From the NCBI RefSeq assembly GCF_000165485.1, contig NC_014623.1, forward strand, positions 2,437,501-2,501,500: DNA of 64,000 nucleotides. Reading direction: 5' to 3'. The stretch comes from Stigmatella aurantiaca DW4/3-1 (lineage in GTDB: Bacteria > Myxococcota > Myxococcia > Myxococcales > Myxococcaceae). The notes below the pieces were generated by a model that made no database searches, had not been told where the DNA came from, and worked only from the letters and a program-made list of their open reading frames with translations. Position numbers and translations under genes: made by a program. Positions 6,550 to 26,143 of the stretch are shown in pieces (position 1 is the first letter of the stretch; each line of letters opens with the position of its first letter).

Positions 6550-8501
6550 AGCGCTGGAATCTAAAATCCCTTCTTTTTTATAGCCATGATGGTCAACGTC
6601 GTGACATTGATCTCAAGCCCGAATCCGTGAACATCATTACGGGCAATTCACACACCGGAAAGTCAGCTATTGCAGAAGTCATAGACTACTCCATGGGCTC
6701 AAGCGAGTGCCATATCCCGGGCCGCGTGCGCGATGCCTGCTCGTGGGTAGGGATGATCTGGGTGAAAGATCAGACCCAATGCATCATTTGTCGCAAGATG
6801 CCTCCTGGGCCCAAGGCAGTATCGAACGATGTGTACCTTGACGTTGGGGCAAACATTATTGCGCCAAAGTCTGCCACTGACTTGCGGCGAACAATGGATT
6901 GCGAAACCGCTCTGCGACGGATTGAGCAGTTGCTAGGGATCGGGCAGGTTCAAACTGAGCTATTCGGCGCTCCATCGCGTACTCCTGTGAGAGTGTCGCT
7001 TCGCAGCGTGATTCCCTACCTTTTGCAGGATGATCAACACATCATCAACAAGAACGCCTTACTCCGAACATCTGCATCTGACAGGCGCGAGCAGTACATC
7101 ATAGATACTCTTCCCTATGTCGTGGGAGCTATCGACGAGACCACCGTTGCTCGTGAGGCTGAATTACGCAGACTCAAAGCAGCACTGACTTCAGAAGAGC
7201 GTAGGCAGGCAGCGCGGCAATCAGTCGTTGCAGAAGAATCCACGCTGACGGAAGCACTAATTCAAGAGGCGGCCCAAGTAGGGTTGCTGAAAGACATTCC
7301 CGCGAATATCACGGCTCAAGCTGCCCGCGATATATTGCGTGCGCTTGATGCCGATCCTCAAGAGGAAAGTAGTCCATTCGCAACTGATGAACAGCTTGAG
7401 CTCCTCTATGCAGACGACCGGCGTTTGTCAGGCGAAGGCAGCACTCTCAGAAACCAAATCTCAGCAGCCAAGCGTGCCATTCAAGCATCTGAGAGTTTCA
7501 CCGCTACTGGGAGATCTGAGGAACGGCGCTTGAGCGTGGTGAAGCTCATTCCAGACGAAGCCACGGAGGATGCATGCCCTCTCTGCACGCAACCAGTCCG
7601 TGATCGTGTTGACTCTGTTGAGAAGGTACGAATGGCAGTCAGGCGCGTACAGGGGGAACTCCGAGAAGTACTGCGAGAACGTCCCAAAATAGATGCAACC
7701 ATCGCTGAGCTAGAAAATAGGCTAACTGACGTCACCACGAAAGTTGCGGCAGTTCGCGAGAAAATCAAGACATTGGTGGGCGAGACCGAGGCTCGTCGTG
7801 CAGCACAAACGCTGTCGGAACGAAGATCGCGTGTGCTTGGCAGAATCAGCATGTATCTCCAAGCTGCTGAGCCGACGCCCGTTTTGGAAGCACAAGCCCA
7901 AAGCAAAATTCCTGATTTGCAGTCACGTATTGAGGAACTTGAATCGGAACTGGATCCAGAAGCTAAGCTCAATGGGTTGGACCTTGCCAAGGCACGGCTG
8001 AACGCAATGGCTTCCGAGATCGGGGCACTTCTTCCACTCGACTCTCGATACAGACTAAGTCCTTTTGATATTAACCTAAGAAACCTTTCTGTAGGAATTG
8101 TAACCTCGAAACGACGCGAGGATATGAGGGATGTCGGATCTGATGAGAATTATCTAACGCTTCACGTCGCATTTCTGCTGGCCTTCCATCGCCTTTTCGC
8201 GGAGCGTGACCGCCCAGTGCCAGGCTTTATCCTCTTCGACCAATTGAGTCGCCCTTACTATCCTCCTGATCCACTTCGGCCTACACAGGAAGAAGTAGTG
8301 ACCTCAAGGCAACCAGAAGTTTCCAGTCTCAGAAAGTATTTTGACGTACTCTTTAATGAAGTGGGACGTGGGGAATCGCTCCAAGTTCTTGTGTTAGAGC
8401 ACGCATACTTTTCTGATGATCCGCGTTTCGTAAGTGCTACACGAGAGCGTTGGATAAACGGAGTTGCACTCATCCCCGAAGACTGGCCAGAACCTCCTTA
8501 A
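6546..8501 (+). CDS. ABC-3C system ATPase, DUF3732 family
   Basis: A 651-residue SMC/Rad50-like ATPase. The start at 6546 lies in an ATGA overlap; an upstream in-frame ATG at 6489 would read through the preceding gene and was rejected. The N-terminus MKRWNLKSLLFYSHDGQ and the Walker A motif GNSHTGKS (about residues 33-40), followed by DYSMGSSECHIPG, are typical of DUF3732. Residues about 210-500 are charged and predicted coiled coil, interrupted by a CPLC segment that could be a zinc-hook-like tip. The C-terminal half has GFILFDQLSRPYYP (Walker B region, with Asp but not the usual DE pair). By analogy with family members it senses invading DNA or another trigger and controls the nuclease effector. 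Confidence 0.85.
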   Translation: MKRWNLKSLLFYSHDGQRRDIDLKPESVNIITGNSHTGKSAIAEVIDYSMGSSECHIPGRVRDACSWVGMIWVKDQTQCIICRKMPPGPKAVSNDVYLDVGANIIAPKSATDLRRTMDCETALRRIEQLLGIGQVQTELFGAPSRTPVRVSLRSVIPYLLQDDQHIINKNALLRTSASDRREQYIIDTLPYVVGAIDETTVAREAELRRLKAALTSEERRQAARQSVVAEESTLTEALIQEAAQVGLLKDIPANITAQAARDILRALDADPQEESSPFATDEQLELLYADDRRLSGEGSTLRNQISAAKRAIQASESFTATGRSEERRLSVVKLIPDEATEDACPLCTQPVRDRVDSVEKVRMAVRRVQGELREVLRERPKIDATIAELENRLTDVTTKVAAVREKIKTLVGETEARRAAQTLSERRSRVLGRISMYLQAAEPTPVLEAQAQSKIPDLQSRIEELESELDPEAKLNGLDLAKARLNAMASEIGALLPLDSRYRLSPFDINLRNLSVGIVTSKRREDMRDVGSDENYLTLHVAFLLAFHRLFAERDRPVPGFILFDQLSRPYYPPDPLRPTQEEVVTSRQPEVSSLRKYFDVLFNEVGRGESLQVLVLEHAYFSDDPRFVSATRERWINGVALIPEDWPEPP

Positions 8502-8821: not shown

Positions 8822-9310
8822 TCACCTCTTGGCGTTCCGCGCCCCCGGCAGAAGCAAGGCAACCAACCGCGCCAGTGCCTTGATCCTCGGACTGTCCAAG
8901 CGAGCTAGACGGCGCAAGAGGCGGCGCTTCTCAGGCGTGTCATTCAGGCCAGGCGGCACCGTGTTTGCCCTGGGGGCGCTCTGCCCCAGTTCCACCTCGG
9001 TAAACCCCATCAGTTCATGCGGCCCGCTTCCGAGAATCAGGCACAGGCGCAGCAACGTGGGGACACTCGGCAGAATTCCCCCCCGCTCCATGCGCCCGTA
9101 CACCTCGGGAGCGTTGCCGATGCTCTCGGCTACTTCTGCCTGAGTCATGCCCGCTCGCTTGCGTGCCTGCTTCAATGCCGCGCTTAGGGTGGCCGGTAGT
9201 TGGCGTTGACGGATCTCAATGTGCCGCGGCAGAGGGGAGGGATTGCGGTTTCGCTCCGTGGGACGCCGGGAGCGTGCAGCGGTGGGGGGAGGCGCGGGGG
9301 CTCGTGGCAT
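8822..9310 (-). CDS. XRE-family helix-turn-helix regulator
   Basis: A 162-residue protein. The start at MPRAPAPPP was chosen because the upstream extension is not protein-like. After a basic proline-rich N-terminus, residues about 43-100 form a lambda-repressor-type helix-turn-helix: LSAALKQARKRAGMTQAEVA, then EVYGRMERGG and a hydrophobic helix. The C-terminus (TPEKRRLLRRLARLDSPRIK) is a short basic helical pair. It lies downstream of, and in the same direction as, the degenerate kinase at 9506-10705, 195 bases away. It may therefore belong to the DUF2381-kinase cassette and regulate it, although the second cassette lacks a counterpart. Confidence 0.85.
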   Translation of the reverse strand: MPRAPAPPPTAARSRRPTERNRNPSPLPRHIEIRQRQLPATLSAALKQARKRAGMTQAEVAESIGNAPEVYGRMERGGILPSVPTLLRLCLILGSGPHELMGFTEVELGQSAPRANTVPPGLNDTPEKRRLLRRLARLDSPRIKALARLVALLLPGARNAKR

Positions 9311-9505
9311 GCGGAACCTGCGTGCGTGGTCCTGTCGGCCGGGTTGAAGCCCCAGGAGCCACCGGTAGATAGCTACGGTTAGAGAGGGAGAGACGCGCAC
9401 ACGGTGCCTTGTCTCCCAACCTCCCCGGAGACAAGCCACTCCCATCCTCGGCACGGCGCCGAAGCAGGGACTGCTGGGAGCGTGAGAGAGGAGCGTGGCG
9501 GGGGG

Positions 9506-10705
9506 CTAGGTGGTCCCACCCCGCTCAGCGATGATGTCCGCTTCCGTTACCATGTCGGGCGGCAACTGGCTCTCGTTCGTGGGCCCGAGAACGTTCCGGC
9601 TCATGCTGGCCCCTGTCAGCGAAATCTGAACTTCGTCCAGCGCTTCCTTGGCTTCGTAGGGGGCGCCCAACGAAGCGAGGCCCGCCCGTAGATCAGCCTC
9701 CACGCCCGACGCCGACTGATAGCGATCTTCTGGGTCGCGTTGGATCAACCTGCGGACGATGGCGCGCAGCGGATGCACCAGCGGCTGGGTGAGCTCGTCC
9801 ACTTCTTCCCGGGTGAATGTGGCAGCCCGCAGGATGCAGTCTTCGGCATGGTCCGGTAGGTCTGCCTCCATGGCCGTAATCGCCGCGTCCAGAACCTTCC
9901 CCTTTACCTTCTCCGTTAGCGCCTCCTCCAAGTCGTCGGGCCGCACGGTGGCGGTGCTGTAGAGGTGTCGCCAGGTGGCCAATTCCAGCAGCACCAGCCC
10001 CAGTGAGAACAGATCCGAGCGCGGATCCGTCTCCTCGCAGAGCAACGCCTCGGGGGAGCAATAGAACACGTCGCCATGAGGGCGCGGCAGCGTCGTTGCC
10101 ACGCGGCCCGGCAGCAGGGAGCGCGCGCGGGCAAAGTCCGTCAGTATCACCCCACCCTCTGGCTCCAGGAAGATGCGGGCGGGGTTCAAGTCCCGATGAA
10201 CGATGCCCAGCGGGGCGCCGTTCTCGTCCTTGCAGGTGTGTGCGTAGTGCAGGGCTCCCGCGACTTCGGCGCCCACGTAGAGGCAGAACGCCGGGGATAG
10301 GAACCTCTCGCGCATCTGCGAGTAGGTGATCAGGGTGTTGATCGAGGTGCCCTCTACACGGTCAGACACGATGTAGAGAACGCCTTGGACTTCGTAGGGC
10401 CCGAGGCTGCGGGCGATTCTCGGGTGTTGCAGGTACGTGGCGAGGTGCGCCTCTTCCCGGAGCCGCGCGCGCATCCTCTCCAGCGTTTCGGGCTCGTCTG
10501 ACGACGTGGGCGGTAGAGAGCGGACGATGACTTCCCGCAGGCGCGTCTTCTCGGTGCGCTCCCAGGCTGGGACGGTCATTTCCCCGAGCCTGGATTGCGC
10601 CAACTCTTCGACCAACGGGCGCGACAGATCCACCTCATACGAGAGATCGCCCTGAGAGAAGAGAATCACCCCCGGGACGCTCCAGGGTTGGCGAGAAGTA
10701 GCCAT
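9506..10705 (-). CDS. degenerate Ser/Thr kinase (pseudokinase A)
   Basis: A 399-residue cytoplasmic protein with a protein-kinase fold; the start at MATSRQPW is preceded by AGGAG about ten bases upstream. The catalytic loop HRDLNPARIF (His170-Arg-Asp172) is kept, but the ATP-anchoring Lys is replaced in REVIVRSL (Arg62), the glycine loop is not recognisable, and DFG is DFA (190-192). The C-terminal lobe features SDLFSLGLVLLEL and DPEDRYQSA are well conserved. It has no membrane segment. The family is inferred to act as a scaffold or allosteric partner of the neighbouring kinase at 10944. It aligns along its length with the protein at 16327-17457, which has lost different residues. Weak catalysis cannot be excluded. 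Confidence 0.85.
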   Translation of the reverse strand: MATSRQPWSVPGVILFSQGDLSYEVDLSRPLVEELAQSRLGEMTVPAWERTEKTRLREVIVRSLPPTSSDEPETLERMRARLREEAHLATYLQHPRIARSLGPYEVQGVLYIVSDRVEGTSINTLITYSQMRERFLSPAFCLYVGAEVAGALHYAHTCKDENGAPLGIVHRDLNPARIFLEPEGGVILTDFARARSLLPGRVATTLPRPHGDVFYCSPEALLCEETDPRSDLFSLGLVLLELATWRHLYSTATVRPDDLEEALTEKVKGKVLDAAITAMEADLPDHAEDCILRAATFTREEVDELTQPLVHPLRAIVRRLIQRDPEDRYQSASGVEADLRAGLASLGAPYEAKEALDEVQISLTGASMSRNVLGPTNESQLPPDMVTEADIIAERGGTT

Positions 10706-10943
10706 GTGGGATCGGCTCCTGGCAGCACGCAAAAGGGCGCCGCGCAACGGAGGGAAACACTACCTGGCATGTGCAGGGACATGGAACGACGCCCAAGGTT
10801 AGACGCGGCGCGATCTCTGGCTACAGCATCAGCGGAACGCCTCGGCAGGCCCACCTCGATGCGAAAGGGAGCCACCGGGCCAGCTTCACCTGGCCGACGC
10901 GCGTTGCCTGTCCAATGCCCGCAGGCGCTCTACCGGGCCCGGC

Positions 10944-12848
10944 TCACCTCCACCGCTCAACGGCTACCGTCCCGGACACCTTGGAGGCCACAGGGGCGCC
11001 GGGCTTAGAGCCCTCTTCCAGGGTCGAGCCCAATTCGCCCTGGTTCGCCAGTTCGAGGCAGATCGGCACGGTGCGCCCGCCTGGAAGGTGGGCACGGACG
11101 TATCGTCCATAGATGCGATCTCCCGTCGTCCACAGATGCCCATCTACCCTCATCCCCGCAGGCGCCTTGCCTTCCGCCCTGATCAGTGCCCCCGTAACGG
11201 GCCCATCCTTCCAAACGGTCGTGGGTTGCTCGCGTTGCTCCTCGTAGGTCCCCTTGGTCACGTCCAGCAGGATGCCGGGCCCGGAGTATTGGTAGCCCAC
11301 TGACCACCCTAGCTCTTTCCGCATCGCCTTAACGGCTTCCTCGGGACACGGCTCGGGATCCGGGCGCGTCTGCACGCCAGTGCAGCCCGCCTCAAGCCAT
11401 GCGACGGAGGCCACGAGCGCCGCGCACTTCTTGATGAGCGCGCGCCGCCCGCTGGCCTTCTGGACCTGCTGCGGGTCGGGTACGCCGTTGGTGAGCGTTG
11501 GGGAGTTGTCGGGCAGCTTCACGGACAGGCTCGCCTCCTTCTGGGTAGGGAGAGGCGAGGCTAACCGTTCGGGGCGGCTTGTCGGCTTTTCGGCCGGAGT
11601 GCTTGAGGCTGGGGGCTGCTCTGCTGATGCGCTCCTAGCCACGGCGGGCGGTTCCGGTTGCGCTGGCCTATGCAGCGCGAATGCGGCCACGACAGCCGCA
11701 AAGACAGAGAGCGCCAACGCCCCGAGGACCACCGGACGCAGCCACGCACGGCGCGGGATGTGCTGCACAGGCCCCCCCGCCGCAGCAGAAGGCACGGGCG
11801 CCGCATCCGCTGACCCCGCCTGCACCGGGAACGGATGGGAAGGGATCGGCTCCTGCGGGCCCTCGGGTTGTCGCGCTTCCACTGGCAAGGGCTCCGCTGC
11901 CGGGGGCTCTGGCGGTAGCTGCGAGGATGCCGGGTGAATGGGGAGCTCTCGCCACTCGGCGCCCTCGTAGCGCTCCAAGTCCGCCAGCAGGCGCCGCGCA
12001 TCCTTCGCGGTCGCAGGCCGCACCTCCAGGTCACGATGGATCAGCTTCATCGCGTAGGCGCTCAACTCCCCTGGAACGCGCCCCTTGGTTGCCCGATACG
12101 GGGTGGGCGGCATCAGCAACATGCTATTGAGCACGGGCCGCCGCTCGCTGCGTTCCGGTGTCGGGTCCGTCAGCACGTCGTAGAGGTTGGCCCCGAGCGC
12201 GAAAATATCGTCCGTTTCCTTGAACGTGTAACGGGCCCCGTGCTTGAGGCGGTTTTCATCCCAGAAGCTTTGAGCTTCGGGGCTGCGGTTGCGCGGCGTT
12301 CCTGGGGGTAGCGGCCCGTCGGTCAAATCTTCAGCGGTCGCATAGTCCGCCGCTCCAAAGTCGATGATCACCGGCTCGCCATCCTTGGTGACCATGATGT
12401 TTCTCAGGCTCAAATCCCGATGGAGCACCCTTTTCGCGTGCATGTGCTCCAGGGCGTCAAACAGCTTGAGAAACAGGACGACGACTTCATGCGGCGTCGG
12501 GTTAGTCCGCTCGACCCAGCGGGCGAGCGTGTAGCCGTCCACGAAATCTAGAACGATGTAGTGGAAGCCAGAGCGCGCATGCGGCCACCGGCCACTCGTC
12601 AACATGCGGATAATGTTCCGGTGGCTGAGTTGCTGGAGGCACGCCACCTCGCGCCGCGCGCGCGCGTCCGTTTGCCTCGGATCACTGCTGCGCTCTGTCT
12701 GACAGGCCACCTTGAGCGCGAAGCGCTCGCCGTCCCTCTCCACCTCGTAGACGACGGCATAACCGCCGCTCCCGATGCGTCGAACGATGCGCCAGTCGCT
12801 CACCATCTGGCCGGGCTTCAAGTCCAAGGGATCAAAATCCGCGAACAT
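10944..12848 (-). CDS. membrane Ser/Thr kinase with internal lipobox-like segment (kinase B)
   Basis: A 634-residue kinase. The ATG at 12848 is preferred over a GTG three codons upstream because GAGAGG sits eight bases before it. Residues about 20-295 are a complete kinase domain: GSGGYAVVYE loop, FALKVA (Lys about 46), HRDLSLRN and DFG (about 164). A Pro-rich linker leads to a transmembrane helix at about 372-393. The outer part contains RRALIKKCAALVASVAWLEA followed by GCTGVQ, which looks exactly like a lipoprotein signal with a lipobox Cys near 489. The remaining residues form a compact beta-rich domain with a Cys pair. The gene lies 22 bases downstream of the DUF2381 gene and upstream of pseudokinase A. 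It is inferred to sense an envelope signal, perhaps via the DUF2381 protein. Confidence 0.88.
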   Translation of the reverse strand: MFADFDPLDLKPGQMVSDWRIVRRIGSGGYAVVYEVERDGERFALKVACQTERSSDPRQTDARARREVACLQQLSHRNIIRMLTSGRWPHARSGFHYIVLDFVDGYTLARWVERTNPTPHEVVVLFLKLFDALEHMHAKRVLHRDLSLRNIMVTKDGEPVIIDFGAADYATAEDLTDGPLPPGTPRNRSPEAQSFWDENRLKHGARYTFKETDDIFALGANLYDVLTDPTPERSERRPVLNSMLLMPPTPYRATKGRVPGELSAYAMKLIHRDLEVRPATAKDARRLLADLERYEGAEWRELPIHPASSQLPPEPPAAEPLPVEARQPEGPQEPIPSHPFPVQAGSADAAPVPSAAAGGPVQHIPRRAWLRPVVLGALALSVFAAVVAAFALHRPAQPEPPAVARSASAEQPPASSTPAEKPTSRPERLASPLPTQKEASLSVKLPDNSPTLTNGVPDPQQVQKASGRRALIKKCAALVASVAWLEAGCTGVQTRPDPEPCPEEAVKAMRKELGWSVGYQYSGPGILLDVTKGTYEEQREQPTTVWKDGPVTGALIRAEGKAPAGMRVDGHLWTTGDRIYGRYVRAHLPGGRTVPICLELANQGELGSTLEEGSKPGAPVASKVSGTVAVERWR

Positions 12849-12870
12849 GCCGTGCACCTCTCGCCAGTGG

Positions 12871-13773
12871 CTACAGCTTCACCTCGGGAATGGACAGACA
12901 GCGGCTCCCGTCACTGTTGCACACCCGCACCGCGTGCAGCGCTCCCAGCCATGCTTCCTCCTCACGCGCGGGCATCTCCACTTCCACGGCCACGCTCACC
13001 ACACCGCCCGGCGGGATGGTTGCTTGCCCAGAGAGGACCGCGCGAGCGCGGCGCGGCTCCCCTCCTGCGGGCGTTACTTCGGCCCACTCGGGTGCCCACG
13101 GCTCTCCCCCGGTGTTGCTCACTTCAAGGACAACCACGCTCCACGTTGTCCCCCCGAGGCCCCAGCACACGACGGGGCGAAGCTCGCTCCCACGCGCGGC
13201 GAAGCACGCTTTCTCAAACTCTGCTCCCCTCATGCCCTTCTTGGTCACGAAGCCCGCGAGCGCCACGGCAGCCGGGCTCAAGGCTGCGGGCCGGGCCTTC
13301 AACGCCTCCAGTTCCTTGGCTTGCGCCTCGCACCGCTCGTGCGTGGCGGACAGTTCCACGCGGCACGCCTCGAAAGTTTGCGGCGGGCGGCTCACGTTGA
13401 CCAAGCCATCCGCCGCGCCCGGCTGCCCAGTCAGCAGGACCACGACGCTTGCGGGTGAGCCCTCGCGGTAGGTGACTCGCAGCGCGAGCCGTTCACCGGG
13501 ACCGAGCGCTGCCAAAGGCGAGAGCGTCACGCCTTGATCACTCACCTCGAATACAGCGAAGCGGGCGCGGCCCTCCACCTGGACAGACTCACGCAGGATC
13601 GGAGCGCCCAGCAGGATCGCCGTGACGGTGCCAGGCGCCACATAGATCAACGGTGAATCGCTAGCCTTGCCCGTGAGAACGACGGGGCGCCCTGCGGGCG
13701 CGGCCTGTGCCGCAGCGGTGAGGCTCACCAGCAGGGAGGCGAGCGCAAAACCTGGGGTGAAGGGTCGGAACAA
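12871..13773 (-). CDS. DUF2381 (TIGR02268-type) secreted protein
   Basis: A 300-residue protein with a TTG start ten bases after GGGAGG. Residues 1-24 form a Sec signal peptide ending in AQAAPA. The rest is a two-lobed beta-rich secreted protein with VVLTGKASDSPLIYVAPGTV near the N-terminus, a central Glu/Lys-rich helical stretch (CEAQAKELEALKARP) and a C-terminal half resembling a beta-sandwich (PPGGVVSVAVEVEMP). This matches the myxobacterial paralogous family DUF2381, usually found beside Ser/Thr kinases; the molecular function is not known. It is the first gene of the cassette continuing into kinase B. The paralog is at 19396-20262, and a truncated third copy begins at 23784; all three use TTG starts. 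Confidence 0.85.
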   Translation of the reverse strand: MFRPFTPGFALASLLVSLTAAAQAAPAGRPVVLTGKASDSPLIYVAPGTVTAILLGAPILRESVQVEGRARFAVFEVSDQGVTLSPLAALGPGERLALRVTYREGSPASVVVLLTGQPGAADGLVNVSRPPQTFEACRVELSATHERCEAQAKELEALKARPAALSPAAVALAGFVTKKGMRGAEFEKACFAARGSELRPVVCWGLGGTTWSVVVLEVSNTGGEPWAPEWAEVTPAGGEPRRARAVLSGQATIPPGGVVSVAVEVEMPAREEEAWLGALHAVRVCNSDGSRCLSIPEVKL

Positions 13774-14593
13774 GGCGGGGGAACCTCCCGGGTAGGCCCC
13801 CAGAGTAGCAGACAGGGGAGCGCCCCCGCGTCGAAGTCAGGCGCTGTCCATGCGCCAGCCGTCGGCGTCCTTTCCGCGCGCCGTTCACGGCCCCACTGCG
13901 CACGCCACGACCCATGCTTGAGGGCTCCACGCGCCCAGCAGGTGAGCCTGGACGCGGGCGACTCCACCGGGCGCAACTTCACCCGTCCGACGCACGGGGG
14001 CTACTGGCGCACAGGCCCGCCCCGATACGCGCATGGTGGCGCCGGGCGTGGGGCCGTTGGTGGGCTCCGGTGGCGCCGGGAGTGGGCTCCGGTGGCGCCG
14101 GGCGTAGGCTCCGGTGGCACCGGCCGTGGCGCCGAGCTGCACCCCGTAGAAGTCCCGTAGAAGTCCCGTATGAAGCCCCGTCACCGCTCCGCGTCCGCCA
14201 CGGTTCAGCCGCCCCATGCCCTGCACCGCGCACGCTCCATCCACCCGCCCGCATGGGCCCTTGGTTGCCCGGCCGCACGCTTGCCAATCACCGCTCGCGC
14301 TTCGCCCCGCGTCTGGACACAAGGCGCTGCGCTGTGTCACTCCTGCTTTGGGTAGTTCTGGGCAGGTGGGCGAGTTTGTGAAGGGCGGGCAGGGCGATGG
14401 GTGGGATCAACTCCCTGGAGGGGCAACCCTCCATGTGCGGCGCAGTCGTACGCCGTTGGCTAGCCGGTGACACCACCGGCAGAAACGCCGAGACCAGTGG
14501 CAGAAGCTCTGGTGACACCGCGAGGAACGCCAGCAGCAACGCCCGGGCGCGTCGCTGGTCACTCCAGGCGACGCCGCAGGAGGGGGAACGGCC
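13774..14593. other. non-coding region upstream of excisionase, with repeats and a conserved segment
   Basis: Positions 14030-14130 repeat a unit around GGTGGCGCCGG(G/C) interspersed with GGGCTCC, followed by a repeated GTAGAAGTCCC (14147-14170). Positions 14200-14500 hold a segment with a clear diverged copy at 31.98-32.28 kb. Shared landmarks in order are GCACGCTCCATC (31.98 kb has GCGCACTCCATC), GCACGCTTGCC, CTGTGTCAC, GGGTAGTTC, an inverted-repeat-like run around GGAGGGG, and GGTGACACC. No ORF is shared between the copies, so it behaves as a non-coding module of the integrative element; it could hold integrase arm sites or an RNA. Confidence 0.6.
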
Positions 14594-14818
14594 ATGAGCG
14601 CGTCCCCTCTAGCTGCGAACACCGCGCCCGCGTTTCTCACCGTGGAGGAAGCCGCCGAACTTCTGCGGGTGAACCGGAAAACCCTCTATGAGGCGATCCG
14701 GCTCGAACAGGTGCCCGGCGTTGCTCGGCTCGGGCGAATCCTCCGCATCCACCGGGACACGCTGCTAACGTGGAGCCCCGGTAACAGCAGACCTGCGCTC
14801 GGAGACAAGAAGCCATGA
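14594..14818 (+). CDS. excisionase-type helix-turn-helix protein
   Basis: A 74-residue DNA-binding protein with the MerR-like winged helix-turn-helix of excisionases: FLTVEEAAELLRVNRKTLYE, then VARLGRILRIHRDTLLTW. The start at ATG is preceded by AGGAGGGGG about ten bases upstream. Such proteins bend DNA and direct the partner integrase toward excision. The stop overlaps the integrase start by four bases (ATGA), which confirms that the two are an operon. The length is typical. Confidence 0.85.
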   Translation: MSASPLAANTAPAFLTVEEAAELLRVNRKTLYEAIRLEQVPGVARLGRILRIHRDTLLTWSPGNSRPALGDKKP

Positions 14819-16002
14819 GCGTCAGACTGCGGCAGTGGAAGACCCAGGAGGGCAAGGTGCAAGAGGCGTGGTGGGTGGACGTCAAGTACCAGCACCCCAG
14901 TGGCAGGGTGGAGCGGATCCGCAAGGCCTCGCCCATCAACACCCGCCGGGGGGCTGAAGAGTACGAGCGACAGATACGCCATGCACTCCTGACCGGAACC
15001 TTCGGAAAGGAGAACGGCGCGGGTCGGGTTCTCACCCTCGGGGAGTTCGTCCCGCGCTTCCTGACGTACAGCGAGAACAACAACAAGCACTCCAGCGTCG
15101 TCACCAAGCGGCAGATCCTGGATGATCACCTGATCCCCGCGTTCGGCAACATGCCCCTTGATGCCATCGGCCCAGCGGAGATCGAAGACTTCAAGGCGGC
15201 CATGCGTAAGAAGCCCTCGGGGGCGCGTGCACGGAAGGAAGCTCCCACGCGGGCGGCCCTCCTCAAGCGCAAGGGCTCCGGTGCGGTGAAGCTGCTCTCC
15301 CTCAAGTCGATCAACAACGTTCTGACGGTCCTGCACAAGTTGCTGGCACTGGCTCAAGAACAGGGCGTGCTCCAACACGTCCCGCGCGTCAAGCTGTTCA
15401 AGACGGACAAGCCCGCCTTTGACTTCCTCTCCTTCGAGGAAGCCGAGCGCATGAGCAATGCCGCTGAGCCGGAGTGGCGGACGTTGATCCTCGTGGCGCT
15501 CAAGACGGGGTTGCGGCTTGGAGAGTTGATCGGGCTTCAGTGGGCAGACCTGGACTTGCAGCGCGGCAAGCTGAACGTGCGCCGAACGATCTGGCGCGGC
15601 GTGGTGGGACTGCCCAAGGGTGGACGGGAAAGGACCGTGGACTTGCCCACGTCGGCGGTGGAAGCACTCAAGGCACACCGCCACCTGTGCGGCCCATACG
15701 TGTTCTGCCAGACGGACGGTCGCCCGCTCACCGCTGGGATGACCAAGCACCCGCTCCTGCGAGCGCTGCGTAGGGCAGGAGTCAGCCGCCCGGAGGGCTC
15801 CATCGGCTGGCACGACCTGCGCCACACCTACGGCAGCCACCTCGCGATGCGGGGCGTTGCTCTCAAAGTCATCCAAGAGTTGATGGGCCACGCGACCATC
15901 GAGATGACCATGAGGTACGCGCACCTGTCGCCCGAGGCGCGGGAGAGTGCGGTGCAGGAGTTGGATCGGCCCATCCCCCAGCCGCGCGCCGCTCTGGGCT
16001 AG
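14815..16002 (+). CDS. phage-type tyrosine integrase
   Basis: A 395-residue site-specific recombinase. An N-terminal arm-binding domain (about 1-65) is followed by a SAM-like core-binding domain (about 70-190) and the catalytic domain. All six catalytic residues are visible: Arg234 in TGLRLGE, Lys268 in LPKGGRE, His333 and Arg336 in HDLRHT, His359 in GHA, and Tyr368 in RYAHLS. It should therefore be active. It inserts circular element DNA at a short core. Only 69 bases after the stop codon lies a tRNA/tmRNA-3'-end-like core (16071-16113), as expected for an integrase next to its attachment site. The gene is coupled to the excisionase upstream. Confidence 0.93.
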   Translation: MSVRLRQWKTQEGKVQEAWWVDVKYQHPSGRVERIRKASPINTRRGAEEYERQIRHALLTGTFGKENGAGRVLTLGEFVPRFLTYSENNNKHSSVVTKRQILDDHLIPAFGNMPLDAIGPAEIEDFKAAMRKKPSGARARKEAPTRAALLKRKGSGAVKLLSLKSINNVLTVLHKLLALAQEQGVLQHVPRVKLFKTDKPAFDFLSFEEAERMSNAAEPEWRTLILVALKTGLRLGELIGLQWADLDLQRGKLNVRRTIWRGVVGLPKGGRERTVDLPTSAVEALKAHRHLCGPYVFCQTDGRPLTAGMTKHPLLRALRRAGVSRPEGSIGWHDLRHTYGSHLAMRGVALKVIQELMGHATIEMTMRYAHLSPEARESAVQELDRPIPQPRAALG

Positions 16003-16010
16003 AGACGCCA

Positions 16011-16117
16011 GAGGGGCACACTGAGGGCACATGATGAAAACGAGGACAAAGAAAAACCCAGCAACCCGTTAAGATTGCTGGGCTTCTCGGGATGGAGGCG
16101 GCGGGAATCGAACCCGC
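16011..16117. other. attachment site 1: arm motif plus tRNA/tmRNA-end-like core
   Basis: Positions 16071-16113 recur at 26091-26133 in the same orientation with only three mismatches. The right part (16094-16117) recurs at 27395-27418 with one mismatch. Read on the minus strand the core is a perfect T-arm (GCGGGTTCGATTCCCGC) followed by the acceptor strand CGCCTCCA, i.e. the last bases of a tRNA or tmRNA, but the 5' part of such an RNA is absent. A 26-base motif at 16011-16036 (GAGGGGCACACTGAGGGCAC...) has a near copy at 27543-27568. Together they look like integrase core and arm sites. Which RNA gene served as the original target is unknown. Confidence 0.7.
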
Positions 16118-16326
16118 TCCGGACGGTGCGAAACTCCCAGCGGAATCGCGCCCTTACCTCGTAACCGCCCGGAACGACTTGGAATCGATATCCCGCCGCG
16201 TCCCCTGCTGTCCCGCCCTGTTCCAGCCCGTTCCGCACTCTCACGCGACACTGACGCAACATGGGTGAGGGCACCTACGAGCCAACCGCCCCCCCCACGG
16301 CTACGGGGAGCCGGTGCCGGGGGCGA

Positions 16327-17457
16327 TCAGGCGGTCGTGATGCTGTCCGAGCCCTTCAAGCCCAGGTCGACCATGAATGCGCCTGCCTCCCTCTTCATCT
16401 CTTTCAGCTCGGCCGCAGCCTTTTCCTTGCCGAATTGCCCCCCGAGCCATCGGCGCAGGTCCGTCTCCAGCTCCGCTGCGGTCTGGTAGCGCGCGCTAGG
16501 GGAGCGCTGAAGCAGCTTGCGAAGGGGGACACGCAGCGTATCGGGCAGGCCCGCCGTGACCGCTTCGAGGTCTTCCTGCGTGTAGGTCGCCGCACGCCAG
16601 ATCGTCTGCTCAATCGCGGGCTCACATCCGGCCAGCCGAGCGCGCTTGATCGCGCGCTTCACGCGGGCGAGCTGTCTCTTTGAGAGTGCCGACTTCGCCG
16701 CGTCGGAGACCCCCATATCGGTATCGAGCAGGTTCCGCCCCGTGGACATTTCGAGCATGACGAGCCCGAGCGAGAAGAGATCCGAGCGTGCATCCACCTT
16801 GCCGCCGAGAAGCATCTCGGGCGAAGCGAAGTAGGTATCCCCTTGCGGTCGGCGCACGGTGGAGGCGACGCGGCCCGGCAGGGTGGCAAGCGCGAGCCCG
16901 AAGTCGGAAACCTGAACCTGCCCCTCCCAATCCATGAAGATGTGACTCATGTCGATGGCCCTGTGGACAATGCCGAGCGGGAGCCCCTGTGCGCCTTTGG
17001 CCGCGTGCGCGTACTGCAACACGTCAGCAACCTGCGCGCCGACGTACAGCGTGAAGAAGGGCGAGAACCAGCGGTCGAGTTCGGTCGCGAGCCCCATCAG
17101 GTCATCGAGATCCTGCCCCGCAGGATGGTCGGTGACCACGTACCAAGCCGATGCGGTCTTGTGCAGGCCGTGGGTGCGAACAATGCCCGGGTGGTGGAGA
17201 CACGCTGCAAGCCTCACCTGCTCTTCGAGCTTCGCCCGCGCCTTGAAGACCCGCAGCGCCTGCTCAGCGCCGATCGGATTGCCGACTGCCTTGAGCAGCA
17301 CCTTCCCTTGCGCGTACCCATTGACGCGTTTCCGCGCCAGAAAGAGGCTCAGGCCGTGATGCGCCTCGCCCAAGGCTTTACGAAACTCGTAAGAAACCCC
17401 AGCCCCATCGGAGAACAGAATCGCCCCCTGCGGAAGCTTGAACTCGATCGCTGACAT
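16327..17457 (-). CDS. degenerate Ser/Thr kinase (pseudokinase C)
   Basis: A 376-residue cytoplasmic kinase-fold protein; start at MSAIEF. It keeps the ATP-anchoring Lys (KVLLKA, Lys56) and DFG (185-187), but the catalytic loop reads HRAIDMSHIF, so the proton-accepting Asp is Ala (167). It is therefore probably an ATP-binding pseudokinase. Conserved C-lobe motifs SDLFSLGLVMLEMSTG and SPSARYQTA are present. It is a full-length paralog of the protein at 9506-10705, sharing the N-terminal pattern ILFS-D/QG-G/D-(x)SYE and the LYVGA-VA--L-YAH segment. It is the third gene of the second DUF2381-kinase cassette, 163 bases after kinase D. Confidence 0.87.
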   Translation of the reverse strand: MSAIEFKLPQGAILFSDGAGVSYEFRKALGEAHHGLSLFLARKRVNGYAQGKVLLKAVGNPIGAEQALRVFKARAKLEEQVRLAACLHHPGIVRTHGLHKTASAWYVVTDHPAGQDLDDLMGLATELDRWFSPFFTLYVGAQVADVLQYAHAAKGAQGLPLGIVHRAIDMSHIFMDWEGQVQVSDFGLALATLPGRVASTVRRPQGDTYFASPEMLLGGKVDARSDLFSLGLVMLEMSTGRNLLDTDMGVSDAAKSALSKRQLARVKRAIKRARLAGCEPAIEQTIWRAATYTQEDLEAVTAGLPDTLRVPLRKLLQRSPSARYQTAAELETDLRRWLGGQFGKEKAAAELKEMKREAGAFMVDLGLKGSDSITTA

Positions 17458-17620
17458 GTTCGATCCCCATCTCGCTCGCGCGGGCACCATGCCAGCGCGA
17501 GAGGGGCTCAGGTTACCCACTGGATGGGGCTGAAGGGAACGCCCTGCTAGGTAGGTGATCGTCCCGCCCAAAACCGGCCGATTTTGACCACCTACCTGCT
17601 ACGTCACCTTGCGGGGGCTA

Positions 17621-19399
17621 TCAGGGTCGCCAGTCATCCGTGACGAATCCTGCATTCCCGTTCGCGGTCTTCGCGGCACCGTCCTTCAGTTCACGCGCGC
17701 CCACGTCAACGACGAAGCACACGGGAACCTCGTCCTGTCGTGGCAGCTTCACGCGCTCGTACTTCACGACGACCCGACCCGGCCTGCCGGATGCCGTCTT
17801 CTCGGGCCACACGTAGACCTTCCCGCCGAGAAAGCGCGTCCCTGGGGGGGCTACTTTGGCCTGCGATGGGGTCACACCCTCGGGAACAACCCCGACAACT
17901 GTGTCGCCCGCGCGAAGCCACACGTCGGCCTCTCGATCGTATCGGTCATCCAGCACGACGCTAAAGCGGTCTCGGTCCCCCCAGTGCAACTCTTTTCGCG
18001 TTGCGACCGCGCCTTCTGGGCAGGTGAACGGGTCGGGCTTGAGTTGAACGCCGGTGCATCCGGCCGCGAGAGCACAGCCGACTGCTACGGCTTTGCGCAT
18101 GTCCGAGCCGGGAGAGGTCTTCTGGCGGGGTGCTTCTTTCGGATCTTCAGGTGGGGATGTCTTCACGGTTGAACCTTCCTCCGATACGGGGGCGGGTGTT
18201 GGCAATGTGCCCACCACAGGCGCGGGGGCGAGGGGTGACATATCAGGGGCGGATATCGGGGGCGTCGGGCTCGTGGCGCCGATGGGCTCGACGACTGACT
18301 CAGGCGTTTGGGGACGGAGCCAAAGGGCTGCGGCAACGCCGAGCACGACGGCAGCGACCGCGCCAACCGCGAGCCGCTTCCCCGAGCGACGGACAACGGC
18401 ACCCACCCTGCCGCCCAACGCACGCAGCTTGCTCCATCGGCCCGCGTCCTGCTCGACCGGCTCGTCGACGTTGGGCCGCTCGGGTCGACGCTGCTCCGAG
18501 GGGGGATGCGCGAGCGCTTGGTAGTCAGCTCCCGGATGCGCCTCCAACTCGGCCAGCTCGCGGTGAAGAGCATCGGTATCAACAGGGCGGTCTGCGGGAT
18601 CGCGGGACAGCATGCTTTCGACGAGATCGCCGAGCGCTTCGGGCACGCGGGGGTTCCGAGCCCGGGGCGGCGTGGGCGGATCGAACGGGCTGTTGAGAGT
18701 CTCGCGCGGGCGCTCTTCGGTCGGTCGCGGGTCCGTTAGCAGTTCGTAGAGCATCGCGCCGACGGCGAAGATTTCGTCGGCTACCTGGAAGGCATACTTC
18801 GCCCGGTGCTCTTCCCTGTGCTCGCGCAGGTATGTGAACTGCTCGGGGGCACGGAAGCGATCGGTTCCGGGCGGAAGTCCGCTCTCGGTCAAATCCGCCG
18901 CTTGCTCGTATGTCGCACAGCCAAAGTCGATGATCACCGGCTCGCAGTCGCTCTTCCGGATCACCACGTTAGCGAGCTTCAAATCCCGGTGAAGGATGCC
19001 CCGGCTGTGCATGTAGGCCAGGGCGGTGGCGATCTTCACAAAGACGCGCAGGATTTCGTGAAAGGTGGGGTGCTTGCGCTCTTTCCACTCGTCGAGCGTC
19101 CAGCCATCTACATACTCAAGAGCGAGATAGAAATTGCCTGCTTCCGCGTACCCATGGCCGCAAAGCGCGACGATGTTCGGATGATCCAGCATCGAAAGAA
19201 CCGTCAATTCGCGCTTCAAGCGAGCGTGTGTCTGTTTGTCGTCCCCGCTGGCCTGACGGTGCCGCGCCACCTTGACCGCGCGACGCAGCCCGTTCTTCTC
19301 AACGAGATAGACGACGGCAAACCCACCGTTGCCAAGTTCCTTCAACACGTGCCAGCCGTCAATGAAAAGGCCGGAAGGCAGCCTGAGAAGAGTTCTCAT
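17621..19399 (-). CDS. membrane Ser/Thr kinase with internal lipobox-like segment (kinase D)
   Basis: A 592-residue kinase with an intact catalytic domain at about 12-285: GNGGFAVVY, AVKVAR (Lys43), HRDLKLAN (137-144) and DFG (158-160). A transmembrane helix lies at about 341-361. Residues 434-450 read MRKAVAVGCALAAGCTG, which would be a textbook lipoprotein signal with lipobox AAGC (Cys448) if translated separately; an in-frame ATG exists at 18098-18100. The remaining 140 residues form an outer beta-rich domain. The gene overlaps the DUF2381 stop by four bases. The layout equals that of kinase B. It is inferred to transmit an envelope or DUF2381-derived signal to the cytoplasmic pseudokinase encoded next. 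Confidence 0.9.
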   Translation of the reverse strand: MRTLLRLPSGLFIDGWHVLKELGNGGFAVVYLVEKNGLRRAVKVARHRQASGDDKQTHARLKRELTVLSMLDHPNIVALCGHGYAEAGNFYLALEYVDGWTLDEWKERKHPTFHEILRVFVKIATALAYMHSRGILHRDLKLANVVIRKSDCEPVIIDFGCATYEQAADLTESGLPPGTDRFRAPEQFTYLREHREEHRAKYAFQVADEIFAVGAMLYELLTDPRPTEERPRETLNSPFDPPTPPRARNPRVPEALGDLVESMLSRDPADRPVDTDALHRELAELEAHPGADYQALAHPPSEQRRPERPNVDEPVEQDAGRWSKLRALGGRVGAVVRRSGKRLAVGAVAAVVLGVAAALWLRPQTPESVVEPIGATSPTPPISAPDMSPLAPAPVVGTLPTPAPVSEEGSTVKTSPPEDPKEAPRQKTSPGSDMRKAVAVGCALAAGCTGVQLKPDPFTCPEGAVATRKELHWGDRDRFSVVLDDRYDREADVWLRAGDTVVGVVPEGVTPSQAKVAPPGTRFLGGKVYVWPEKTASGRPGRVVVKYERVKLPRQDEVPVCFVVDVGARELKDGAAKTANGNAGFVTDDWRP

Positions 19400-20262
19400 C
19401 GCTTGCCCTCCGGAGCGGCGGTCGGAAGTGTCACTCGTGGAATCACAACGCTTCGGCCACCGGCTCCGAGCACTTCGAGAGTGAAGACAAGTCCTGCGCT
19501 CGGGGGCGGCACGTCTGCCATCACAAGCACACGGGCAGATTCCCCGGGGGCGATGGTGTCCCTTTCAGCCGTCACGCGAAGAGCCCGCAGCGTGACGCCA
19601 TCCTTGCCCCTCAACGTCGCTTCGTGTGGCGCGAATGACGGACGACCGGACAGGTTCCTGATCACGATGTCAAAGAGCACCCAACCATTGCCGCGATAGG
19701 ACACGCCCGCGTCCGACTTAAGCCCCTGCGCATCGTCCGTGGCTTCATCGAACTTAGCTGTGGGTACGCCGGATTCATTCACGTAGCCCAGCAACACGAA
19801 GTCTTCCGGCTGGGGATCGCTTTGCTGCACTTCGACCGGGCAGGCTCCGTTCGGCGGCTCGGGCCGCTCCACGTCGATCCGCGTGTCCACTTCGGCCGGA
19901 TCCATCACGAGCACGAACGCGGCCCGAGCGGGCGACTTTCCATCCGCGAAGTAAACCTCGAGTTCCTGCCGCTCGTTGGGCCGGTAATCCTCCACCGCTT
20001 GCACGATGATCGATCGCGCCCCCGTGTCCACAACCCGGATCCGTGACTGATCGACCGTGATGGTCTTCTTCTGGATGTCGGCGGGAAAGAGCAGGACCGT
20101 GGGCACATCAGGCGCGACGTGGATCTCGGGTAGTGGCTCGGTGGGGTTGACGGTGACGGCGACGGGCCGATCTCGCTTCGTGCGGCTCGGCGCAGCTTCG
20201 GCTCGCGCGGCAGCTCCCAGTAAGAGCGCGAGCAGAAGGGCCAATCTGACGGGTACGATCAA
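19396..20262 (-). CDS. DUF2381 (TIGR02268-type) secreted protein
   Basis: A 288-residue protein with a TTG start ten bases after AGGAGG and a signal peptide ending near AARAEAA. It has PTEPLPEIHVAPDVPTVLLF near the N-terminus and a C-terminal beta-sandwich half (IAPGESARVLVMADVPPP). It lacks the long central helical stretch of the copy at 12871-13773 but otherwise corresponds to it. Its last codons overlap kinase D. The promoter-proximal 115 bases and the first codons have a near copy at about 23.78-23.90 kb, preceding a truncated DUF2381 gene. The function is unknown; linkage to a receptor-like kinase suggests an envelope sensing or binding role. Confidence 0.85.
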   Translation of the reverse strand: MIVPVRLALLLALLLGAAARAEAAPSRTKRDRPVAVTVNPTEPLPEIHVAPDVPTVLLFPADIQKKTITVDQSRIRVVDTGARSIIVQAVEDYRPNERQELEVYFADGKSPARAAFVLVMDPAEVDTRIDVERPEPPNGACPVEVQQSDPQPEDFVLLGYVNESGVPTAKFDEATDDAQGLKSDAGVSYRGNGWVLFDIVIRNLSGRPSFAPHEATLRGKDGVTLRALRVTAERDTIAPGESARVLVMADVPPPSAGLVFTLEVLGAGGRSVVIPRVTLPTAAPEGKR

Positions 20263-20332
20263 AGGTGGGTGACCTCCTGGATTCGCACCCTACCATCGCC
20301 AGCGCCCGCGCAGCGCGGCCCGAGCCGAGAGG

Positions 20333-21088
20333 TCACGGAGAGTCGCGCCCGCCGATCGCCGGGAAGCGCTCGTAGGCACGTTTGAGCGCGTCCAGGTGCG
20401 CGGGGATGTCGAGATCGAGCGGCGTATCGGTGAGCTGCACGACCCATCCGCCCAACGGCGTGCGCCGCGCTCGCGTGAGCAGCTCGGCGTCGCGGGCCAG
20501 GTCCGGGAACCCGATGGTCTTCGCGGCAGCGGCAGACCAGTAGTTCAGCCACCCAAGGTAATAGGGAATCTCAGGCGAGCGAATGTGCTGGAAGAGTTTC
20601 AGGGCAGGCAGCCCCCTGCGTGGAGACGGCGGCCCTTGCAGCGTGGGCGCTGTCTGATACGCGATGTCCACCTTAGCGGCGTATGGCGTTGCACACCCCC
20701 AGAACGCGCGTGCGCCCTCCGCCACGGCTTCAAGCACAGCCGCCGATGCCGCGGTCACAGGCTCGTCCAGTGGCATTTCTGCATGGACTTCAAACTGGGG
20801 CTGACCGCCCGCGGTGAAGAGTCCCGAATTTTCCATTCCAGAAACCGTCACGGGGTAACTCTTGTCCCCGTTGCACACAATAGGGAATCCCCCGTTCTCA
20901 ATGCTTTCTACGAGCCATGCGTCGCGCTGTGGCAATGCGATGGGGCGCCCACTGCCTGAGAGCCGCCACTTCAGCCTCAAGCCGGGGAGCGCCTTTTCCA
21001 TCCCATGGATGACGTCGACTGTGCGGCTGTCTTTGCCCATGAGTGCAGGCGCGTAGGTGATAAGGGTGAGGGTTCTTTGCTGAGTCAT
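20333..21088 (-). CDS. SitI/DUF5953-like immunity protein
   Basis: A 251-residue cytoplasmic protein starting at an ATGA overlap with the toxin gene. It opens with QRTLTLITYAPALMGKDSRT and has VVDVIHGMEKALPGLRLKW-like and IALPQRDAWLVESI segments, ending in GGWVVQLTDTPLDLD. I recognise this as the myxobacterial family usually paired with DUF6310-type lipoprotein toxins (DUF5953, from memory). It is inferred to neutralise the toxin encoded just upstream. The final codons (FPAIGGRDSP) are duplicated at about 23.87-23.90 kb, showing that a second copy of this gene end once existed there. The family assignment is moderate to strong; the immunity role is inferred from linkage. Confidence 0.75.
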   Translation of the reverse strand: MTQQRTLTLITYAPALMGKDSRTVDVIHGMEKALPGLRLKWRLSGSGRPIALPQRDAWLVESIENGGFPIVCNGDKSYPVTVSGMENSGLFTAGGQPQFEVHAEMPLDEPVTAASAAVLEAVAEGARAFWGCATPYAAKVDIAYQTAPTLQGPPSPRRGLPALKLFQHIRSPEIPYYLGWLNYWSAAAAKTIGFPDLARDAELLTRARRTPLGGWVVQLTDTPLDLDIPAHLDALKRAYERFPAIGGRDSP

Positions 21089-21990
21089 CGTGTGCATCCC
21101 GTGACGACGATATTGAGGAGTGGAGCCTTGGCGAGTAGCGCGTCTTTATGCGCTTGGGTGCTCACCCCGATGACGAAGTCATATCCACATGCCGTTGCGA
21201 TGGCTCGCTCCCTTTGAATTTGCTTGAGTTCCTTGTCGATCTCCATGCTCTGGACGAAGGAATTATATTTATCGAATTGATGGGTCTTGATCTCCCAGAG
21301 CACGCGCACACCGACTTGCAGCGCATCGAAGCGTATTCCTCCCACGCTTACGTCCATGCCGGGATAACGGTTGGGCGGAAACTTGTCGGCGCACTCGTTA
21401 TGCGGATCATCTTTGGATGCGCGCGGCACCGGGATGGCCTCGCACTCCGGGCGGCGCGGGTTGGAGTCTGGTACTGGGAAGATGTCTCCAGTGGGCGACC
21501 CCTTTGGCTTAGGTGTTTGGTTCGCTAAGGGCTCCTTAGCAGGTGTCGGTTGCGTCTTGAGCTTCGCACGCTCGCGGGCTGCGTGCCGTTGATATGCATC
21601 AATCCCCTCTTGGATGGCGGCTGCGACCACCACCGCGCCAACGACAATCACTGCACCCGCGACGATTTCGGGCGCGGCGAAGATACAGAGGGCGACGACT
21701 GCGGGAGCCGCTGCATCCGCTTGGGCGACGGCGCATTTCTTTGTCACATCCCGGAACCTCATCCTGTCGCGCTCTAGAGCGTAAAAGCACCGCTCCGCAA
21801 GGATAGGCCACTCGTTGGATGCTTCTCGCACGACGCACTGCCCGTCATCTGTCCAGGGGTACAGCGCCGCCCGCTGAAGATTGGCGAGTCTCGGGCTCGG
21901 GGCCTCAAACTCTCCCGGGCTCGGATCCATCGTTGTGCAGGCTGAGAGCAGGAGCAGGAGCAGGGGGGCGCTACAAGTTCGGCGAGGCAT
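21085..21990 (-). CDS. SitA-like lipoprotein toxin with PD-(D/E)xK-like C-terminus
   Basis: A 301-residue lipoprotein: MPRRTCSAPLLLLLLSAC with the lipobox Cys at 18. Residues about 100-140 are strongly hydrophobic (VVALCIFAAPEIVAGAVIVV), a likely membrane-crossing segment. The C-terminal domain contains VSVGGIRFDALQVGVRVLWE and IKTHQFDKYN, an FDALQ...LWEIKT pattern resembling an endonuclease E-x-K site. A short CGYDFVIGV segment follows. This matches SitA-type toxins of Myxococcus that pass between cells by outer-membrane exchange and kill siblings lacking the immunity protein (DUF6310-type, from memory). The gene overlaps its presumed immunity gene by four bases. Confidence 0.72.
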   Translation of the reverse strand: MPRRTCSAPLLLLLLSACTTMDPSPGEFEAPSPRLANLQRAALYPWTDDGQCVVREASNEWPILAERCFYALERDRMRFRDVTKKCAVAQADAAAPAVVALCIFAAPEIVAGAVIVVGAVVVAAAIQEGIDAYQRHAARERAKLKTQPTPAKEPLANQTPKPKGSPTGDIFPVPDSNPRRPECEAIPVPRASKDDPHNECADKFPPNRYPGMDVSVGGIRFDALQVGVRVLWEIKTHQFDKYNSFVQSMEIDKELKQIQRERAIATACGYDFVIGVSTQAHKDALLAKAPLLNIVVTGCTR

Positions 21991-23048: not shown

Positions 23049-23784
23049 TTACACTCCTCGGATGTGTTGCTTGAACGCCTCGACGAAGCCCTGCGCGGCA
23101 TCGGCGGCGTCGAGACCCTTCGCCTTGTCGTCTTCCTCGTCGTCTGCCTTTGGCGCGTCGGCAGGCGGCGGCTCGCCCGTCTCGGGCTTGCTCTCGTTCG
23201 GGGCTGCGGGCTCCTCGCCAGTGTTTGGCTTTGCGCCCTGCGCGTCGCCCGCGTCAGGCTTGTCGTGCTCGTCTTCGGGGGGCTTCGCGTCGGCGCACGT
23301 CGAGCAGCTCGACGACCCGTTGCGCGATGCGCTCGACAATGCCGTCGCTCTCGCCGTTGAGAGACTTCGCGCGCAAGGCGCGAGCGTTCACCGGGATCGT
23401 CACGATCGAGACTTCGAGCAGCTCTTGAGCGTCACAGTCGAAGCCGCCCCGCTCGTTCTGCCGGTAGTGCCCAGGCAGCATGAGGTAGCGGACGGAGACA
23501 GCATTGAGGATGCCCTTCGCAACCTTGCGCTCGACGCGCTTCGCGAACTCGTCATCGTCATCGGACTCGACGTCGATCATCAGCGCGTCGTTTTGGACGT
23601 AGACGCGCCTTAGCAGTGTGGGCATATCCCCCGAGACACGTACTTCGGGCAGCGGCTCGGCGGAGTTACCGGTAACGGTGACGGAGCGCATGCGCACTAC
23701 TCGCCTCCCCGGCGTAGGCTCGGCTCGTGCCACAGTCCCCCAGAGAAGCGCGAGCGCCAGGGACAATCTCAGCGGTTGGACCAA
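23049..23784 (-). pseudogene. DUF2381 N-terminus fused to phage prohead protease, frameshifted
   Basis: The first about 58 codons (TTG start after AGGAGG, MVQPLRLSLALALLWG, EPLPEVRVSGDMPTLL) are the signal peptide and start of a DUF2381 protein, closely matching the copy at 20262. At about 23.61 kb the frame passes without interruption into a different protein: GILNAVSVRYLMLPGHY and LLEVSIVTIPVNARAL, the C-terminal half of an HK97-type prohead protease. The open frame ends at 23254, but a neighbouring frame from about 23290 to 23049 continues with a Pro/Glu/Asp-rich tail ending FVEAFKQHIRGV directly before the capsid gene. This shows a single frameshift in the protease part. The fusion arose by recombination and is probably non-functional. 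Confidence 0.75.
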
Positions 23785-26090: not shown

Positions 26091-26133
26091 AAGATTGCTG
26101 GGCTCCTCGGGATGGAGGCGGAGGAAATCGAAC
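26091..26133. other. attachment site 2: copy of the tRNA/tmRNA-end-like core
   Basis: Forty of 43 bases equal 16071-16113, in the same orientation and beginning with AAGATTGCTGGGCT. The part that corresponds to the RNA T-arm has two of the three changes, so it no longer forms a perfect stem. It lies between the truncated helix-turn-helix gene and the lipoprotein pair and bounds a 10-kb segment with site 1. It is interpreted as a duplicated or decayed attachment core left by integration. Confidence 0.7.
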
Positions 26134-26143
26134 CTGCCGCGTC

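Follow-up and report, generated by a model that had tools for sequence, protein, structure and literature searches.

Predicted VirB9-like and kinase-bearing VirB10-like proteins as a probable trans-envelope receptor unit in Stigmatella aurantiaca DW4/3-1

In the core complex of type IV secretion systems (T4SS) VirB9 contacts VirB10, and members of both families (TrwF/TrwE, DotH/DotG, CagX/CagY) resemble in their folds what is predicted for two proteins encoded side by side in a stretch of 64,000 nt of the Stigmatella aurantiaca DW4/3-1 genome (NC_014623.1), referred to here as the window. These are a DUF2381 protein (D) and a transmembrane kinase (K), which are joined in both window units by a pseudokinase (PK). 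The order D before K corresponds to the order virB9-virB10, K shares with VirB10 an inner-membrane transmembrane (TM) helix, a Pro-rich periplasmic stretch and a predicted β-domain on the outer-membrane side, and relatives of the D-K pair in outgroups are found in operons with VirB4-, VirB6- and VirB8-like genes. In contrast to VirB10 of the T4SS, K carries a Ser/Thr kinase at its cytoplasmic end, misses a stretch of the size of the antenna and occurs in many paralogues. Furthermore, the stand-alone VirB10-like domains are lipoproteins, and a match to TrbI/VirB10 (PF03743) was detected neither in the S. aurantiaca genome nor in its genus or the window lineage.

Two other described systems are close to the unit in different respects. 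With the PASTA receptor kinases PknB/Stk1 K shares a cytoplasmic Hanks-type kinase (predicted to be active), one TM helix and an extracytoplasmic C-terminal domain, but instead of PASTA repeats it has a VirB10-like ectodomain, to which a VirB9-like protein is the obligate partner. The SitBAI proteins are polymorphic myxobacterial toxins delivered via outer membrane exchange (PMC5562445, PMC8546572), whose genes reside on mobile elements, prophages among them, and which discriminate kin (PMC5562445; PMC10047993), SitB being an accessory envelope protein for some of them (PMC5562445). The likeness to the D-K loci consists in adjacent SitA/SitI-like pairs, the location on prophages or mobile elements and high paralogue numbers; D, K and PK, however, differ from SitA, SitI and SitB, and a word search of PMC5562445 and PMC8546572 gave no mention of kinases. 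The NCBIfam entry TIGR02268 is named "Myxococcus xanthus paralogous family" and states no function, partner or relation to VirB9. In the open-access literature (subscription journals were not covered) no mention of DUF2381 or TIGR02268 was found, and only unrelated papers were found for combinations of VirB10 with a kinase.

The window contains two D-K-PK triplets on the minus strand, on either side of an integrase and an attachment (att) core, as the first-pass annotation of this DNA had described:

19396..20262, minus strand: D2, DUF2381/TIGR02268 protein with signal peptide and a VirB9-like predicted fold of two β-domains (Pfam, AlphaFold2)
17621..19399, minus strand: K2, Ser/Thr kinase, TM helix, Pro-rich linker and predicted VirB10-like C-terminal domain
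17624..18058, minus strand: predicted VirB10-like domain of K2, starting at a conserved internal lipobox-like GC
16327..17571, minus strand: PK2, pseudokinase with HRD changed to HRA; probable true start at about 17457 (from alignment)
12871..13773, minus strand: D1, DUF2381 protein (predicted VirB9-like) with TTG start
10944..12857, minus strand: K1, Ser/Thr kinase, TM helix, Pro-rich linker and predicted VirB10-like domain
9506..10747, minus strand: PK1, pseudokinase with β-3 Lys changed to Arg, catalytic-loop Asn to Arg and DFG to DFA; probable true start at about 10705 (from alignment)

Both D proteins match DUF2381 in Pfam (E 3e-48 for D1 and 6e-54 for D2) and are members of TIGR02268, and K1, K2, PK1 and PK2 are assigned to Pkinase. 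The 4-base overlap described for D2 and K2 is present, whereas K1 starts 13 and not 22 bases after D1. The TTG start claimed for D applies to both window genes and to 44 of the 52 assigned D genes in groups with D followed by K, the clade in which D is followed by a lipoprotein using mostly ATG; it may keep the expression of D low. RNA genes were not found in the window by Rfam.

The AlphaFold2 model of D2, calculated from 24 sequences (predicted local distance difference test, pLDDT, 75.8; predicted template modelling score, pTM, 0.46), consists of two β-domains. In the VIA comparison with the PDB the first eight rows all belong to the VirB9 family (Z 9.9-12.6; next row 9.4), among them DotH (12.6), TrwF/VirB9 (11.9), CagX (11.6) and the VirB9 of X. 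citri (11.2), the alignment of which extends over 205 residues and covers both domains. Weak Pfam matches of D2 below the cut-off point to DotH (E 0.001) and TraK_C (E 0.0097), and the comparison of the D profile with a small VirB9 alignment by hhalign was not significant. Within the window D is located directly before the VirB10-like K; a VirB8 gene is not found there. The predicted fold strongly suggests that D is a VirB9-like protein.

The C-terminal domain of K2 was modelled with higher scores (pLDDT 87, pTM 0.79), and the top 13 VIA rows from the PDB are all of the VirB10 family (Z 5.4-8.9, with DotG at 8.9, TraB at 7.7 and TraF at 7.6), followed by an unrelated structure at Z 3.0. We therefore regard this domain with strong confidence as VirB10-like as far as the model can tell, a step which is based on the fold prediction and on the outgroup intermediates described below and not on direct sequence comparison. 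A search of PDB sequences for a direct link of this domain or of D to these families gave nothing relevant, and hhalign against a small VirB10 alignment was not significant. Since the fold of the domain coincides with kinase-TM-VirB10 fusions in the outgroups, K is predicted to be a VirB10 with a Ser/Thr kinase as its cytoplasmic end. An α-helical antenna, the pore-forming part in the outer membrane, was not detected, the K2 model being devoid of helices longer than seven residues, and the domain is shorter than that of the outgroup fusions, the stretch between a PxG-like motif and the last strand being missing; in the window lineage the antenna of VirB10 has thus apparently been lost from K. 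No other T4SS genes were seen beside the D-K loci, a genome-wide search for VirB4 not having been made. The VirB9-like character of D and the VirB10-like character of the C-terminal domain of K had been overlooked in the first-pass annotation.

The intermediates were obtained by a TrbI/VirB10 search of other Myxococcota, which revealed kinase fusions of about 700-1,080 amino acids (open frames). Their kinase is homologous to that of K, for most of them the K C-terminal profile gives a weak score to the C-terminal domain, and their C-terminus reaches or approaches the TrbI cut-off of Pfam (28-36 bits; cut-off 35 bits) and/or matches TraM. In all nine outgroup loci a DUF2381-like gene lies upstream of the kinase-TM-VirB10 fusion on the same strand, directly so in eight, and at L159 two small genes are located in between. 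The partner at L159 matches DUF2381 over the cut-off and DUF4138 (4e-5), and that at L160 shows in Pfam a weak match to CagX (E 0.017) and not to DUF2381. Upstream genes of these operons gave weak matches to VirB8/TraE and VirB6/TrbL; where the operons were read further, VirB4/TraC was matched over the cut-off and VirB2/TrbC weakly. The resulting gene order is VirB8/TraE-like, DUF2381-like, TrbI/TraM fusion, and the position of D between virB8 and virB10 is thus found in the outgroup loci. As the DUF2381-like gene precedes the fusion among VirB8-, VirB6-, VirB4- and VirB2-like genes, these matches assign to DUF2381 the position of VirB9, and to the kinase fusion that of VirB10, in a T4SS-type operon.

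In four genomes (G086, G027, G095 and G162; loci L161-L164) a protein of the kinase family, about 450-670 amino acids in length and with a weak C-terminal VirB10-like match, is encoded 9-17 kb from true VirB9/VirB10 genes; the PK profile gives 217-240 bits for three of these four proteins. They may represent another kinase-VirB10 fusion within T4SS clusters.

The catalytic residues (β-3 Lys, HRD Asp, Asn and DFG Asp) were counted from the alignment. All four are kept in 57 of 63 K copies and in each of the nine outgroup fusions, and in none of 35 PK, in agreement with the earlier statement that the third gene lacks them. K is accordingly an intact kinase by sequence and predicted to be active, and PK is a predicted pseudokinase. 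Among 23 triplets the mean pairwise identity is highest for the kinase domain (0.74), followed by the VirB10-like domain (0.60) and the C-terminal half of D (0.53), a gradient consistent with a constant output combined with varied ectodomains without proving it.

The K C-terminal domains of two complete genomes were located by a search of their own, independent of D. DUF2381 was found within 3.5 kb of all 43 of them, and the domain adjoins D in all 40 sampled loci of relatives; the genes are thus neither usually unlinked nor is their order the outcome of a single local duplication. The S. aurantiaca genome contains 28 DUF2381 matches over the cut-off and 29 in all, some of which are fragments, and the family is also expanded in the genus and some related genera, with 13-53 matches in the six other members of the genus and in genome G013. 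All 13 full-length PK genes of S. aurantiaca, with scores above 450 bits, sit in D-K loci; PK is, however, missing from many of these. In about one third of the sampled loci of relatives the K C-terminal domain is a small stand-alone protein with a lipoprotein-type signal, and these D-lipoprotein loci contain no kinase. The stand-alone copies form one clade of the D tree, with kinase-fused copies across that branch.

The obligate linkage, the D-K loci without PK and the stand-alone lipoprotein domains therefore lead to a core of two parts, D and the K C-terminal domain, with the kinase as its fusion partner and PK as an addition at some loci. For these reasons the three-part unit of the first-pass annotation was not upheld as an obligate one. 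The broader proposal made there, of a conserved, recurrent and mobile envelope-signalling unit rather than scattered kinases, is supported in that the order is kept and the linkage holds across species.

We consider signalling across the envelope by D and K probable, and each unit is, as an overall explanation, quite likely a trans-envelope receptor kinase made of T4SS core-complex parts. D would be a periplasmic VirB9-like protein, and K would span the inner membrane and the periplasm with the kinase inside, one TM helix, a Pro-rich linker and the VirB10-like domain outside. Because the contact of VirB9 with VirB10 is known, the linkage is obligate and the ancestry shared, D and the K ectodomain may assemble towards the outer membrane in the way VirB9 and VirB10 do. 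This complex would be altered by what happens at the outer membrane, for instance contact with a neighbour, lipoprotein exchange or the arrival of a toxin or DNA element, and the alteration would be transmitted to the kinase via the Pro-rich linker and the TM helix in the manner of a VirB10-type connection. The kinase may then act on PK, as a probable scaffold or substrate, and at some loci on a linked XRE regulator. These relay steps are suggested by the domain layout and the linkage. Contact, toxin exchange and element transfer are conceivable as the stimulus, the first two being favoured by the toxin setting.

The ancestral state was presumably the T4SS-type operon of the outgroups, in which VirB10 already carried the kinase. 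In the window lineage the D-K pair would have left the operon, multiplied and spread on mobile islands targeting the transfer-messenger RNA (tmRNA) gene, often beside SitA/SitI-like genes. The complete course from T4SS core complex to receptor, comprising the gain of the kinase in the operon, the exit from it, the loss of the antenna and the rise to tens of paralogues per myxobacterial genome which are coupled to SitA/SitI loci and sense contact, toxin exchange or the transfer of elements, appears to us slightly more plausible than not.

Several observations weigh against the receptor explanation. Neither Pfam nor profile-profile comparison linked the C-terminal domain of the window K to VirB10. 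In the D2 model the N-terminal domain is firm, but the low pTM leaves the arrangement of the two domains uncertain, and many D-K loci are devoid of PK. Furthermore, in K1, K2 and their relatives a short hydrophobic stretch ahead of the VirB10-like domain is followed by an invariant Gly-Cys (e.g. at window position 18058); this lipobox-like segment matches the start of the stand-alone lipoproteins and is hard to reconcile with a simple topology of K.

The remaining features of the region are the following:

20333..21097, minus strand: SitI-like gene (DUF5953, Pfam) between the toxin-like gene and D2
21085..21990, minus strand: gene for a SitA-like lipoprotein with C-terminal DUF6310 (Pfam), a putative toxin
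23254..23784, minus strand: truncated DUF2381 copy
8822..9454, minus strand: XRE/HTH_3 regulator 3' of PK1, in an order common to L013, L052 and L065
14594..14818, plus strand: small HTH_17 excisionase-like open reading frame paired with the integrase (position mapped from L013)
14815..16002, plus strand: tyrosine integrase (Phage_integrase, Pfam)
16071..16117, no strand assigned: att core with the 3' end of ssrA (tmRNA)
26091..26137, no strand assigned: second copy of the att core, 91% identical

The genes at 20333-21990, of which the SitA-like one has a lipobox-like start visible in the sequence, are inferred to be a SitA/SitI-like toxin-immunity pair. The 5' part of the truncated DUF2381 copy (23618-23895) repeats 20099-20375, so that the SitA/SitI block is flanked by two copies of the 5' end of D. 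SitA- and/or SitI-like genes are located upstream of D in the same order in 14 of 25 D2-type loci from Corallococcus, Myxococcus, Pyxidicoccus and Hyalangium genomes, in two of them as an AHH nuclease/Imm11-type pair in place of DUF6310/DUF5953. Together with the SitA-like genes near D in the S. aurantiaca genome, these neighbours lend indirect support to the self/non-self role that the first-pass annotation had named as one possibility.

The presence of two toxin-immunity families at the same place, together with the precedent of SitB as an accessory envelope protein (PMC5562445), would fit D-K(-PK) being a working part of the SitA/SitI locus, in which D and the VirB10-like domain either place, stabilise or gate the toxin, a lipoprotein, at the outer membrane, or the kinase senses incoming toxin and tunes the expression of toxin or immunity. 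In the S. aurantiaca genome 10 of the 25 D copies have a SitA-like gene at a distance of less than 5 kb as compared to 0.8 expected under shifts, a test which is biased since the toxin families were picked for their adjacency to D. Many D-K loci, however, have unrelated neighbours (dnaG/rpoD; rhomboid/NADH dehydrogenase; type I restriction), and both kinds of genes may be mere cargo of shared hot spots. We regard this alternative as possible, though rather unlikely.

The integrase and the att core are positioned between the two units as described earlier, but the term "duplicated" for these units was misleading. D1 and D2 are 31% identical and belong to two well-supported deep clades in a tree of 82 DUF2381 proteins, for which reason a recent local duplication was rejected. 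The near-copy of unit 1 is L013, elsewhere in the genome at 1.60 Mb, with 96% identity over 6.7 kb including the integrase. In the same tree L099 (BNCN01000001.1), labelled as Comamonas sp. KCTC 72670, groups within Corallococcus/Myxococcus, and its organism label may be wrong.

In the att core 25-30 bases correspond to the 3' end of the tmRNA gene, an intact copy of which is present in L042, and related copies of the core occur at many places in the genome. Integrase, ssrA 3'-end att core and the direct repeats around the L013 copy mark a tmRNA-targeting integrative element. Relatives of the integrase are found at the ends of IMG/VR prophage contigs. In L127/L111 (IMG/VR 2844571421_000002) the same integrase family adjoins PK-K-D, as in the window. 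Relatives of the stand-alone lipoprotein and of D1 were not found in the viral_contigs collection.

A control of its own mobile element by the unit, in which K would act via PK and the XRE regulator on integrase and excisionase upon contact or stress, could explain why the order integrase, small HTH_17 gene, D1, K1, PK1 and XRE gene is kept in the window, in L013 and in two other genomes (L052 and L065), why L013 is bracketed by att repeats of 77 bases that are nearly identical and about 13.7 kb from each other, and why XRE genes are located beside further D-K loci (e.g. L017, L018, L080, L082). Most D-K loci lack a linked integrase, however, and the stand-alone D-lipoprotein pairs lack a kinase, which renders this role unlikely.

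The same island contains Lamassu-type LmuA (4715-6070) and LmuB (6489-8501) genes according to PADLOC. Together with the T4SS-subunit origin and the type I restriction genes beside L108 they would be in line with an anti-invasion function, in which truncated look-alikes of VirB9 and VirB10 would detect or poison conjugation or T4SS machines of foreign origin, or report phage attack, and the kinase would trigger a response. PADLOC has no model for D, though, and its kinase matches are generic; membership in a known defence system was thus rejected, and an anti-invasion function is very doubtful. Least probable is a selfish or neutral expansion of a kinase cassette on integrative elements with no dedicated function, for although the high copy number, the decayed copies (L012, L016, L023, L026, L029) and the tandem att sites would suit it, the retention of the kinase residues, the obligate D-K pairing and the clade-wide conserved TTG start argue against it.

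The receptor kinase assembled from core-complex parts, the explanation which we prefer, proposes an identity for DUF2381/TIGR02268, previously named merely as a paralogous family, and would tie signalling kinases to secretion machinery in the form of a receptor kinase whose ectodomain and partner derive from the T4SS core complex. In the outgroups a predicted T4SS core complex would report directly to a Ser/Thr kinase, by which the transmission of signals through VirB10 would become testable. For the Myxococcaceae the D-K pairs are candidate sensors, with defined partners, for kin discrimination and the behaviour of mobile elements.

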